From positions 1-64,000 of the forward strand of contig NZ_VIKT02000017.1 in assembly GCF_009371975.2 (NCBI RefSeq): DNA of 64,000 bases, in the 5' to 3' direction. Under the pieces are notes generated by a model. The model saw only the letters and a list, made by a program, of their open reading frames with translations, had not been told where the DNA came from and searched no databases. The position numbers were made by a program, and so were the translations under genes. Source of the stretch: Microcella pacifica (lineage in GTDB: Bacteria > Actinomycetota > Actinomycetes > Actinomycetales > Microbacteriaceae). Below are positions 7,633 through 45,613 of the stretch, one piece after another (position 1 is the first letter of the stretch; every line of letters starts with the position of its first letter).

Positions 7633-7730
7633 TCGCGGGCCGTTTCGGCCAGCGTCACCCGCCGGCCCCGCCCCGCGTAGCTCGTCCCGCCCCAGATTCG
7701 CCTCAAACGGTGCCGCGCGCGGAGCGCAAG

Positions 7731-7756
7731 CGCCCATTCGTGCCAGATCTGGCGGG
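7731..7756. repeat. Palindromic intergenic repeat (CCAGATCTGG type), copy 1
   Basis: CGCCCATTCGTGCCAGATCT begins this element and GGCGGG completes it; the core GCCAGATCTGGC is a perfect palindrome. The reverse complement of the element closely matches the left arm of the inverted pair at 31357-31385. It sits between the tdk stop and tRNA-Pro. The rest of 7633-7781 shows no gene. It may serve as a terminator or be a small dispersed repeat. Confidence 0.6.
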
Positions 7757-31356: not shown

Positions 31357-31423
31357 CCGCCAGATCTGGCGCGAATGGGCGCTCGTCACATGCCAGAGCG
31401 CCCATTCGAGTCAGATCTGGCCC
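31357..31423. repeat. Palindromic intergenic repeat (CCAGATCTGG type), inverted pair
   Basis: The left arm is CCAGATCTGGCGCGAATGGG plus CGCTC (31361-31385). Its imperfect reverse complement is at 31396-31420, matching at 23 of 25 positions. Between them is a short loop region. The left arm also matches, reversed, the single copy at 7731-7756. Each arm contains its own small palindrome around AGATCT. The position after the DUF3048 stop and before the groEL operators suggests a transcription terminator or a dispersed repeat. Confidence 0.65.
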
Positions 31424-34820: not shown

Positions 34821-36566
34821 TCAGGTGCCCGAGGCCGCGTCGGCCGCCTGCGCGACGCTCGGCGTCTCGTCGGTCTTGGGGAGGAGCGGCAGGGTGACGC
34901 GGAAGGTGGCGCCGCCGCCCGGCGTTTCGACCACGTCGATGCGGCCGTGGTGATGGTCGACGATGGAGGCGGCGATCGCGAGACCGAGACCCGAACCGCC
35001 CGTGTCCCGGGCGCGCGAGGAATCGGCGCGGAAGAAGCGCTGGAAGATCTTGTCTTTCAACTGCGGGGGGATGCCCTCGCCATGGTCGACGACCGCGATC
35101 GTGCCGAGGCGCAGGAGAGGGTCAGCCCCGACCGCGATCTCGAGCGGAGAGCCCTCGGGTGTGAAGCGCACTGCGTTGCCGATGAGGTTGGTGATCACCT
35201 GGCGCAGCTTGTTCTCCTCGCCGAGCACAACGGCGCCGACGGCGGGCGCGGGCGGCGTGGAGACCTCGGGAGCCTCGCGCTCGGTCGCCGTGGAGCGGCC
35301 CCGGCGGCGACGCAGCCGCGCGAGAGCTGAGCCGGCCAGCGCGATCGCCCCGGTGGGGGCAGGGGCGCTCGGCGACTCGGCGGGGTCGGCGTGAGTGGCG
35401 CGGCTCGTGGGCCCGGGAGCGTCGGCCGCGGCATCCTGCTCGATCGCCTCGCCCTCGGGCTCGTACTCGTCGAGCACGACCGTCACCTCGCGGTCCGGCG
35501 CACCCGCCATGGCGTCGAGGGCCGCATCGCGCGCAAGGTCGGCCAGGTCGACGGGCCCCAGCTCGAGAGGGCGGGACTCGTCGAGCCGCGCGAGCTCGAG
35601 CAGGTCGGCCACGAGGGCCCCCATTCGCACGGCCTCCTTCTCGATGCGCTCCATAGCCTGCGCGACATCCTCGGGCTTCTGCAGGGCGCCCATGCGGTAC
35701 AACTCGGCATAGCCGCGCACCGAGACGAGGGGAGTGCGCAGCTCGTGGCTGGCATCGCCGACGAAGCGTCGCATCTGGCTGATCGTCGCCGCGCGGTCGG
35801 CGAATGCCCGGTCGATGCGGGAGAGCATCGTGTTGAGAGAGCGGTTGAGGCGGCCGACCTCGGTGTTGGGCGTCGCCCCGCCCAGCCGCTGGCTGAAATC
35901 GCCCCCCGCGAACCGTGCGGCCGTCGCCTCCACGTCGCGCAGCGGTCGGAACGTGGAGGTCACGAGCAGGCGCGTGAGCGCAGCGCTCAGGATGACCACG
36001 ACGAGACCGAAGCCCAAGAAGATCGAGGCGAACGACCCGATCACGCCGTTCGTGTCGGCCAGGTCGGCGCCGATCACGAGGGTCGCGGCGTGCGTCGTCT
36101 CCGACTCGCGGTCGACGACGGCGAGAGGGAAGGTCGCGACGCGCCACTGGGTCGTGCGGTCCTGGCTCGCGACGGTGATGCCGCCCTCGACGCGCTCGAG
36201 GTAGTCGGCGGTCAGTCGCGAGACGTCGGGAGCGCGATCACGGCTCGCGGAGCCCACATTGTCGTCGATGATGACGCCGTCACCGGCGACGGCGCCGAAG
36301 TAGAACTGGCTCGAGAAGACAGACGGGGTCAACTCGTCGAAGGAGGCGAAGTCTTCGAGGCTGAACGTCGCGGGCGACTGCGGCACCTGCTCCTCGGCGA
36401 CCTGCAGCAGCTGGCGGTCGACCTCGTCGACGAGCGTGCGCTGCAGCACCGTGAGGGTGCCCATGCCGACGACGAGGAGACCGACGGTGACGACGAGGAC
36501 GGTCACGCCGGTGATCTTGGAGCGGAGGGAGATGCCCTCCCACCACTGCGTCAGCTGCTCATGCAT
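34821..36566 (-). CDS. OmpR-family partner sensor histidine kinase
   Basis: A 581-residue membrane kinase. It has membrane helices at about 18-42 and 177-203, a 130-residue extracellular sensor between, a HAMP domain (about 204-255), phospho-acceptor H274 in DASHELRTPL, N box NLIGNAVRFTPEG (about 460-472), G1 VVDHGEGIP and G2 TGGSGLGLAI. Unusually, about 75 residues of Ala/Pro/Arg-rich sequence (roughly 369-443) are inserted between the first strands of the HATPase domain and the N box. The regulator gene lies 12 bp upstream on the same strand. The signal is unknown. Confidence 0.92.
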   Translation of the reverse strand: MHEQLTQWWEGISLRSKITGVTVLVVTVGLLVVGMGTLTVLQRTLVDEVDRQLLQVAEEQVPQSPATFSLEDFASFDELTPSVFSSQFYFGAVAGDGVIIDDNVGSASRDRAPDVSRLTADYLERVEGGITVASQDRTTQWRVATFPLAVVDRESETTHAATLVIGADLADTNGVIGSFASIFLGFGLVVVILSAALTRLLVTSTFRPLRDVEATAARFAGGDFSQRLGGATPNTEVGRLNRSLNTMLSRIDRAFADRAATISQMRRFVGDASHELRTPLVSVRGYAELYRMGALQKPEDVAQAMERIEKEAVRMGALVADLLELARLDESRPLELGPVDLADLARDAALDAMAGAPDREVTVVLDEYEPEGEAIEQDAAADAPGPTSRATHADPAESPSAPAPTGAIALAGSALARLRRRRGRSTATEREAPEVSTPPAPAVGAVVLGEENKLRQVITNLIGNAVRFTPEGSPLEIAVGADPLLRLGTIAVVDHGEGIPPQLKDKIFQRFFRADSSRARDTGGSGLGLAIAASIVDHHHGRIDVVETPGGGATFRVTLPLLPKTDETPSVAQAADAASGT

Positions 36567-42955: not shown

Positions 42956-43015
42956 TCACGCCGTTTGTGACAAGTCACGCCGAACGTTCGGCCCCGGTTG
43001 TCACGAACGGCGTGA
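42956..43015. repeat. Palindromic repeat flanking the nuclease-like gene, left copy
   Basis: TCACGCCGTTTGTGACAA at 42956-42973 has its near-exact reverse complement at 42998-43015 (one mismatch). Between the arms is the palindrome CGAACGTTCGG. A second copy lies at 44141-44199 on the far side of the following gene. It could be a MITE-like element, a terminator or a protein-binding site. Confidence 0.75.
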
Positions 43016-43117
43016 GTTGATCGCTCGGCGCTCCTCCCCAGGGACGTCGCACGGGTAAGGCTCCGCCGTTCCCCGCAGCGTTGCGCCTCCTCTCGACGCG
43101 TGAGGGACATTGCTCGC

Positions 43118-44068
43118 ATGCTCACCCCGCTCGACAACAGTGCTCTCGTCTTCCCGCAGCGCGAACTCGATCTCGGTATCCGGCGAGGGGTCTACCGTGG
43201 CGCGCGGGACGGTGAGTTTCTCAAGCTCGCGCCGGGCGTCTACGTGCGGGGCGACACCTGGAATGAGCTGGGCGTCGATGAGCGCTACTGCTTGAGGGTT
43301 CGCGCGGCGTGGGAGCGAGCTGCTTCATCCGACGTGCTGAGTCACTGGTCAGCAGCAGCACTGTGGCAGCTGCCCATCCTTGGTCGGTGGCCGAAGGATG
43401 TCCACGTCGTCGGCAGTGCGACCTCGAACAGTCGCTCGACGTCGGTCTTGCGCAGGCACACGGACTCCTGGGGCGCACACCCGGTGCACCTCGACGGGAT
43501 GCGTCTCACCGCTCTCGGCCGAACAGTGGTGGACATGGCGCGAGTCGCCCGGTTCCCTGTCGCTGTCGCGATGGGGGACGCCGCACTGTGGCGTGCCGCG
43601 AATCCCCAAGACGCGGAGGGACTCGCGGGTGCATCACTCGAGGAGCTTGAGGAGCTGTGGTCGCTCCTCGACCACGGGAGGGGTTTCGCGCGAGCGCGAC
43701 GCGTGCTCGACTTCATCGACGGGCGCGCGAACCGGCCGGGGGAGTCCCTCAGCCGCGTCACGATGCACGCTCTCGGTGTTCCGACTCCCGAGCTGCAGCA
43801 CACCGTCTTCGGGCCGACCGGGCGTCGTTACGAGCTCGACTTCTACTGGCCCGAGTTCAACGTCGGTGCCGAGTTCGACGGGCGGGCGAAGTACACCGAT
43901 CCGCGCTATCTCGCCGGGCGCACACCCGATCAGGCCGTGTATGAGGAGAAGCTACGCGAGGACGAGATCCGGCCGCAGCTGCACGGCTACGGCCGCTGGG
44001 ACTGGAGCGTGGCGGGCTCGGAGGTTGCGCTCGCTCGACGCTTGCGCCGCATCGGCGTGCGATGGTGA
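43118..44068 (+). CDS. AbiEi/DUF559-like predicted nuclease protein
   Basis: A 316-residue protein. The N-terminal region (LKLAPGVYVRGDTWNELGV) resembles the AbiEi-type antitoxin domain found in many actinobacterial proteins. The C-terminal 110 residues resemble a Vsr/DUF559 endonuclease fold: E209 (NRPGESLSRV), D241 (YELDFYWPEF), E252 and D254-G (VGAEFDGRAKY) with K258 after, fitting a PD-(D/E)xK site. ATG 43118 with GAGGGA at 43103 is preferred; GTG 43100 is possible. The gene is flanked by two copies of one palindromic repeat. No toxin or methylase partner is visible. Confidence 0.7.
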   Translation: MLTPLDNSALVFPQRELDLGIRRGVYRGARDGEFLKLAPGVYVRGDTWNELGVDERYCLRVRAAWERAASSDVLSHWSAAALWQLPILGRWPKDVHVVGSATSNSRSTSVLRRHTDSWGAHPVHLDGMRLTALGRTVVDMARVARFPVAVAMGDAALWRAANPQDAEGLAGASLEELEELWSLLDHGRGFARARRVLDFIDGRANRPGESLSRVTMHALGVPTPELQHTVFGPTGRRYELDFYWPEFNVGAEFDGRAKYTDPRYLAGRTPDQAVYEEKLREDEIRPQLHGYGRWDWSVAGSEVALARRLRRIGVRW

Positions 44069-44140
44069 GCCGCACGAATCAGTCGAAACCTGGGTCGCTG
44101 GGGTGTTGCGGGTGCGATCGACGCTTGGCGGATGACTGGG

Positions 44141-44199
44141 TCACGCCGTTAGTGACAACTGTGATCGAACGTTCGGCGTGTTTTGTCACAAACGGCGTG
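44141..44199. repeat. Palindromic repeat flanking the nuclease-like gene, right copy
   Basis: TCACGCCGTTAGTGACAA opens and TTGTCACAAACGGCGTG closes this copy, with CGAACGTTCGGCG in the middle, as in the copy at 42956-43015. Arms and core match the left copy almost base for base; spacer bases differ. It lies between the nuclease-like gene and DUF2530. Confidence 0.75.
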
Positions 44200-44249
44200 C
44201 CGGAGCGGCACGGGCTGGATCGGCGCGGGAGGGGCGCGGCGCGTGCGAC

Positions 44250-44483
44250 TCAGGGGCGGGCGCGACGCGAGACGAGCAGCCCGGCGAGACCGAGCACGAG
44301 GCCGAGCGCGATCGTCGCGAGCGTCTGAACCGGGTCGAAGGCGATCGGGGTGGCGAGCATCCCGAGCACGATGATGAGTGCCGCGAGCCAGAGGCCGAGG
44401 CCGACCTGGAAGGCGAGCACGTCGTTGGTGCGCAGCGGCTCGGGCTGCGGCCGACGCTTCTCGTGCGGAACCCAGAGCCTCAT
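44250..44483 (-). CDS. DUF2530 membrane protein
   Basis: A 77-residue protein beginning MRLWVPHEKRRPQPEPLRTN, with two membrane helices (about 24-46 and 53-72) and a basic end. This is the DUF2530 pattern, unknown function. It starts 5 bp after the serC stop on the same strand and is probably co-transcribed with it, as in other actinobacteria. Confidence 0.85.
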   Translation of the reverse strand: MRLWVPHEKRRPQPEPLRTNDVLAFQVGLGLWLAALIIVLGMLATPIAFDPVQTLATIALGLVLGLAGLLVSRRARP

Positions 44484-44488
44484 GGCGC

Positions 44489-45613
<1,125 letters not shown>

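Follow-up and report, generated by a model that had tools for sequence, protein, structure and literature searches.

A gene for a predicted nuclease in the actinobacterium Microcella pacifica lies between two copies of one long palindrome, and an association between this nuclease family and its flanking palindromes is very likely. The partnership is real and widespread, and it is undescribed in the open-licence PMC literature that we searched: no description of the pairing appears among the matches listed. The suggestion in the first-pass annotation that nuclease and repeats could form an undescribed unit is partly supported. REPtrons are coding sequences bordered by palindromes, with enzymes that co-evolve with them, as PMC8266576 describes. 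We lean, with somewhat better than even confidence, towards reading the nuclease gene and its two palindromes as a unit of a REPtron-like system whose enzyme is unrelated to RAYTs. This nuclease family is a candidate for the enzyme that spreads short palindromic repeats in actinobacterial genomes without a RAYT, and each homologue comes with a predicted target.

The bracketed gene and its home locus

The window, by which we mean the whole 64,000-nucleotide stretch analysed, contains a left palindrome of 60 bp at 42956..43015 and a right palindrome of 60 bp at 44141..44200, neither assigned to a strand and both recognised by motif search, self-complementarity, RNA folding and a covariance model. 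Their arm motif, TCACGCCGTT-N-GTGACAA, occurs with 0 mismatches at 42956 (+), 42998 (−) and 44141 (+) and with 1 mismatch at 44183 (−), against a shuffle expectation of 0.16 matches; elsewhere in the window it matches just once, at a half-site at 36041 with 3 mismatches. In direct register the two elements have 78% identity, their starts lie 1185 bp apart, and the left one is an inverted repeat of 30-nt arms that are 80% complementary, with zero gap between them. Both fold better than shuffles on the + strand (z −6.2 for the left element, −2.8 for the right). The left palindrome begins 43 bp past the stop codon of a DUF3027 gene and is followed after 102 bp by the nuclease start, and the right palindrome begins 72 bp past the nuclease stop. 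Coordinates, arm matches and direct identity together confirm the earlier claim of two elements of about 60 bp bracketing the gene. That no other copy occurs in the window remains correct for the TCACGCCGTT family, but not for palindromes in general, as an unrelated family is present at 31359-31421. This second family (GCCAGATCTGGCGCGAATGGGCGCT...) lies 34 bp past a stop codon, has a half copy at 7729-7751, and also adjoins another AbiEi/DUF559-like gene in the same genome (L020 899-963 and 3023-3096), which matches the family HMM with an E-value of 4.5e-18. Searches of Rfam gave zero matches at the palindrome sites.

The bracketed gene (43118..44068, + strand, with an alternative GTG start 18 bp upstream at 43100) encodes a protein of 316 aa. 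PADLOC identifies residues 27-144 as AbiEi-like (E 2.7e-9); Pfam gave zero matches on the window protein, and Pfam AbiEi_4 was found in 2/20 homologues. An AlphaFold2 model reached a pLDDT of 94 when built from an alignment of 73 sequences (8 of the 80 homologues described below, L183, L199, L211, L223, L235, L238, L250 and L251, are left out). Foldseek searches of the PDB with this model returned AbiEi (6y8q, E 4.9e-5), Rv2827c (1zel, E 8e-4), and the Vsr endonuclease (1vsr, E 0.05, probability 0.94, TM-score 0.45 by target length), with TM-scores that are modest (0.39-0.45 by target length), as expected when each PDB match covers one half of the protein at a time. Residues E209, D241, D254, K258, E277, R280, and four more are invariant in the 73 aligned sequences, and we take E209, D241, D254, and K258 to form a PD-(D/E)XK-type site, in which the acidic residues and the lysine follow the order of that motif. 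The PADLOC and Foldseek matches and the invariant residues thus point to a modelled protein that joins an AbiEi-like N-terminal half (residues ~1-190, boundary approximate; 43118..43690, +) to a Vsr/DUF559-like C-terminal half (residues ~200-316; 43715..44065, +) and is a predicted nuclease, as the initial description of an AbiEi-like front and a PD-(D/E)xK-like back had anticipated.

The neighbours of the window gene are a cold-shock domain gene, the DUF3027 gene (Pfam PF11228; 42427..42912, +), a small membrane-protein-like gene with no Pfam match (44250..44483, −), which is presumably DUF2530, and a class-V aminotransferase gene (44489..45604, −), which we take to be serC. With no AbiEii toxin partner adjoining the gene, a toxin-antitoxin operon is ruled out at this position, and there is no DNA methylase among the named neighbours. 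Carriage by a phage or plasmid was likewise rejected: no phage match was obtained, and the plasmid records were two from Tsukamurella only.

Using the aminotransferase gene as a marker, we located the locus in 26/26 genomes of the genus that were searched. The DUF3027 gene and the small gene border it on the left and right in filled and empty sites alike. The nuclease lies between them in eight of the 26 genomes, and 14 of the 26 have an empty home locus, where −30 to +45 bp separate the stop codons of the two neighbours, too little for a palindrome; G018 has other sequence between the neighbours, and these counts leave out G009, G011, and G024. This comparison of filled and empty sites, proposed as a check in the first-pass annotation, shows the unit present or absent as a block. 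Among the eight filled loci, left-right resemblance has a mean of 34.6 within a genome versus 17.1 between genomes, with 10/56 between-genome values at or above the lowest within-genome value. This comparison used a longer right region for G021, so that its far copy, which sits one gene further on, past the small gene, was included. The left copies of G003 (z −1.1) and G025 (z −0.4) have decayed.

Matched palindromes across the nuclease family

Scanning species genomes gave 277 relatives, of which the best 80 were kept. These 80 span Microcella, Cryobacterium, Frigoribacterium, Curtobacterium, Microbacterium, Arthrobacter, Cellulomonas, Nocardia, Rhodococcus, Pseudonocardia, Actinomyces, and others, and 73 of the 80 loci had usable flanks (7 were dropped for short flanks or N runs). 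Palindromes with a score of at least 14 are present on both sides at 31/73 loci and on at least one side at 62/73, and at three of the 73 loci neither side holds a palindrome that reaches score 12. The both-side figure compares with 0/933 windows of the same geometry, which are mainly coding DNA, and with 1/81 other genes that have an intergenic gap at each end, defined with a crude home-made gene caller. At a threshold of 12, both sides score in 0.62 of the 73 loci, 0.02 of the 933 windows, and 7/81 control genes. Left and right copies also match each other, with a similarity of at least 25 at 45/73 loci versus 32/933 windows, 2/81 genes, and 5/575 cross-pairings. When both sides are required to score at least 12 and left-right similarity at least 20, two cases are found in the 81-gene control, and these are one A. 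oris gene in two genomes. That gene, presumably acetyltransferase-like (L243 4049-4585, L251 3864-4400), is bracketed by highly similar sequence, with left-right scores of 69 and 123. Strong left copies at the nuclease loci end a median of 182 bp ahead of the aligned start (46 loci), and right and left copies have median spans of 68 and 65 bp, respectively.

A link between the nuclease family and its flanking palindromes is strongly supported by these sequence comparisons, because in other genera and families the homologue is often flanked by a matched pair of palindromes of its own, different in sequence, and because the 14 resolved empty home loci have no room for a palindrome. The family also offers a natural set of long, differing, putative DNA recognition sequences paired with proteins.

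Palindrome similarity tracks protein identity, with r 0.62 across 2410 pairs from 70 loci that have a palindrome score of at least 12, known same-genome pairs left out; 0/1000 permutations reach this r. Palindromes are common (score at least 20) to 18/18 pairs with at least 70% protein identity, to ~4/11 pairs at 60-70%, and to ~1/83 at 45-50%, and the shared fraction is 0.00 after rounding in the other identity bins below 60%. Part of this covariation reflects inheritance in place, because 31/34 homologue pairs with at least 55% identity share every comparable flank. L192 and L201 are 69% identical and share flanks, yet have unrelated palindromes. The Actinomyces nucleases L243 and L246 are 76% identical and share palindromes but not flanks, the clearest relocation. 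Cryobacterium sp. N22 encodes two nucleases (L196 and L216) that are 38% identical and have unrelated palindromes, each of which is common to that nuclease's orthologues in other species.

Solitary copies and likeness to known systems

The pattern extends beyond what the first-pass annotation noticed. A covariance model built from five copies found seven own-genome sites at E <1e-9, the next best having an E-value of 0.0136 (150 of 305 first-look candidates were scored). These are the window pair and five more, solitary copies outside the window, on C1, C7, C14, C21, and C23, a total that is few by REP standards. The sister species G003 has a nuclease 94% identical to that of the window, the same palindrome pair with the same 1185 bp spacing, and four additional palindrome sites of at least 60 bits. 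One set of sites was found with a model built on own-genome copies and is biased toward those copies. The solitary copies on C1, C7, and C21 have orthologous copies in G003, those on C14 and C23 are missing from it, and a G003 copy at 1654268 is missing from the own genome. Three solitary copies thus occur in one sister species and not in the other, which amounts to presence/absence turnover. No clean target duplication was seen at the solitary-copy junctions, which are blurred, with at least 20 neighbouring bases also differing, and none can be claimed between filled and empty sites, where the flanking intergenic DNA is too diverged.

Scattered copies often accompany the family. Joined searches with 14 flanking palindromes in their 14 genomes gave 10-72 rows in 12/14, a row being a match on either strand to any of the 14 palindromes, with at most 35 candidates scored per genome, and where two flanking copies on two strands yield at most four rows; G060 (7 rows) and G065 (6 rows) may hold few or zero solitary copies. 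Within the genus, a search with 18 lineage palindromes against 26 genomes gave 58 non-flanking sites, merged by hand over strands and with matches beside nuclease genes left out. Of these sites, 41 carry the palindrome type of the genome's own nuclease, compared with a mean of 5.9 and a maximum of 15 after shuffling, and 17 do not; at E 1e-5 or better the own type accounts for 25/29 (type groups were assigned by judgement and E-values are rounded). Palindromes are present in G006 and G010, in which there are zero nuclease matches at 1e-20, and relics, gaps in the assembly or independent spread may account for this. Hidden nucleases at the palindrome sites of G006 and G015 were considered and rejected, as the family HMM found none there. 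In two genomes, two palindrome families adjoin within one intergenic gap (L326 1406-1715 in G014; L330 1309-1484 in G005), and an EamA transporter gene of G021 lies between the two copies of a separate palindrome (TCCCGAAGTGTAGGAGGT...; L070 1732-3180).

The positions of these copies bear on an alternative that we consider improbable, namely that the palindromes serve as ordinary (bidirectional) terminators or as hairpins at transcript ends, and flank this gene because it was inserted between two others. Own-genome solitary copies start 14-86 bp past the stop of an upstream + gene, and of the 17 family copies examined in A. oris G069, 11 are set between genes that converge, 5 between genes in tandem, and 0 between genes that diverge (one is unplaced; genes in both cases are from the crude caller); strong hairpins at both window elements agree with such a role. 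However, a scan for intrinsic terminators that requires a T-run finds none at the palindrome sites, and terminators leave unexplained the matching of left and right copies, their differences between lineages, the existence of single and bracketed alleles, and why this nuclease family is bracketed far more frequently than other genes. The first-pass annotation had asked for a search of the genome and its relatives, and had held that palindromes scattered as terminators with no link to this gene would speak against a unit. The search did find solitary copies scattered after stop codons, but the palindromes are not unconnected to the nuclease family, because the scattered copies mostly match their own nuclease type.

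An operator role is a little less probable again. The left copy would serve autoregulation by the AbiEi-like protein, the other copies would be decoys, a regulon or relics, and the nuclease half would act elsewhere, for example in phage defence. The PADLOC AbiEi matches are in line with this, and according to PMC3985639, AbiEi of Streptococcus agalactiae represses its own promoter by binding inverted repeats there, of up to 23 bp with mismatches. Yet the copies sit after genes, not before them, the second copy lies close behind the nuclease stop (strong right copies start a median of 12 bp past it at 47 loci), and the window gene has no adjoining toxin partner.

Returning to the REPtron-like reading, the system looks like a REPtron by anatomy and not by enzyme. 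The coding sequence is bordered by palindromes, and extragenic copies are many (seven sites in the own genome, the 10-72 rows above in 12/14 others). Palindrome-bordered genes, numerous extragenic palindromes, covariation of enzyme and palindrome, and a gene whose behaviour is close to that of a resident housekeeping gene are traits that it shares with RAYT/TnpA-REP genes and their REP/REPIN palindromes (PMC8266576, PMC3116915). The enzyme here, by contrast, is AbiEi plus a Vsr-like PD-(D/E)XK and not an HUH/Y1 transposase, and the system is found in Actinomycetota. It is not a REPtron by enzyme because the defining Y1 transposase is absent: the Y1_Tnp/RAYT domain PF01797 was missing from 17/18 genomes searched, which also led us to reject a RAYT acting from elsewhere in the genome. 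TIRtrons and GTAG/CGTC REPs likewise comprise a gene within long inverted repeats, some of which form moderate genome families, but their enzymes are RAYT-like tyrosine transposases, and the main text of PMC3733652, which describes them, does not contain the words "actinobacter", "Mycobacterium" or "Streptomyces".

The two halves of the protein have separate counterparts. The AbiEi fold characteristic of AbiE type IV toxin-antitoxin systems (antitoxin AbiEi, 6y8q) is found by PADLOC and Foldseek in the N-terminal half, and AbiEi binds long inverted repeats (PMC3985639). In contrast to those systems, the window protein adds a nuclease-like half and has no adjoining toxin partner, and its palindromes occur on both sides as well as scattered. 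The C-terminal half shares the fold of the Vsr very-short-patch repair endonuclease (1vsr), but is fused to an AbiEi-like half, bracketed by palindromes, and not accompanied by a DNA methylase among the named neighbours in the window.

Under the REPtron-like reading, the AbiEi-like half would bind the long palindrome, which is plausible by analogy because the S. agalactiae protein binds long inverted repeats. The Vsr-like half may then nick or cut the palindrome, or its hairpin or cruciform form. Repair from another copy would spread the palindromes and homogenise them within a genome, and could also copy the DNA between two palindromes, whether the nuclease gene or other cargo, into a solitary palindrome. 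Solitary palindromes might, in addition, act as transcript ends. Findings that weigh against this reading are the flanks common to most close homologues, the palindromes of G006 and G010, the 17 scattered sites of other types, the decayed flank copies, the blurred insertion junctions, and the E-value and low TM-scores of the Vsr match.

Bracketed cargo in Actinomyces

The genes bracketed by palindrome pairs in A. oris G069 include the nuclease, a gene with a PIN domain (PF01850), and a ParD/ParE-like pair (PF03693 just below cut-off, PF05016 above). Mutual nearest neighbours make up 3/5 of the bracketing pairs, and the nuclease pair is not among them. For five sites we set G069 against as many as six relatives, which were picked from 15 genomes for informative flank-match spacing. 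At the ParD/ParE site, where seven genomes were compared, G069 has palindrome-cargo-palindrome, and G076 and G074 have one palindrome with the cargo absent, between flanks that are 90-95% identical. The same site has one palindrome and ~1.2 kb of other DNA in G082 and G079, one palindrome in G083, in which the right-flank match is absent in the stretch, and no palindrome in G077. The nuclease site, compared in five genomes, is filled in G069, G076, G074, and G083, and G079 has a single family palindrome and no nuclease. At a third site, compared in six genomes, one palindrome is present in G069 and in G076, two in G083 around 1.9 kb of genes, and none of score 13 in G074 or G082; the right-flank match of G077 is absent in the stretch. 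A single palindrome thus alternates with palindrome-cargo-palindrome at 3/5 sites, and the PIN and acetyltransferase-like sites are uninformative. This alternation agrees with an insertion that duplicates the palindrome it enters, or with a deletion between two copies. The small mobile cassette envisaged in the first-pass annotation is therefore borne out in part: presence or absence as a block and the three alternating Actinomyces sites agree with it, whereas the flanks shared by 31/34 homologue pairs and the missing clean target duplication do not.

Homing endonucleases have a site without the gene and the same site with it, and a split recognition site. The present system shares gene-free and gene-carrying versions of one site, but has a whole palindrome on each side of the gene instead of a split site. 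We consider it unlikely that the element is one of homing only, with the nuclease cutting solitary palindromes, the gene or cargo being copied in by recombination and something else spreading the palindromes. The 4/5 filled genomes and the single palindrome of G079 at the nuclease site, the G069, G076, and G074 alleles of the ParDE-like site, and the nearest-neighbour pattern of the bracketing pairs accord with it, but the 14 resolved empty sites of the window's genus carry no palindrome and no other spreading enzyme was found, the RAYT domain being absent from 17/18 genomes.

Palindrome pairs may offer a route for the movement of small gene cassettes. More tentatively, we suggest that the REPtron-like unit belongs to a new class of elements in Actinomycetota, in which palindromes would be both self-spreading and docking sites, and an AbiEi-Vsr-like nuclease would cut, spread, and homogenise its own palindrome family, moving itself and cassettes such as toxin-antitoxin pairs and other genes, with several nuclease/palindrome specificities per genome. 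A different palindrome pair of G069 (CACTTCGACCAAAACTTCA...; L293 3356-5000) surrounds a gene whose product has SLFN_AlbA_2 and RecG-C-like domains.
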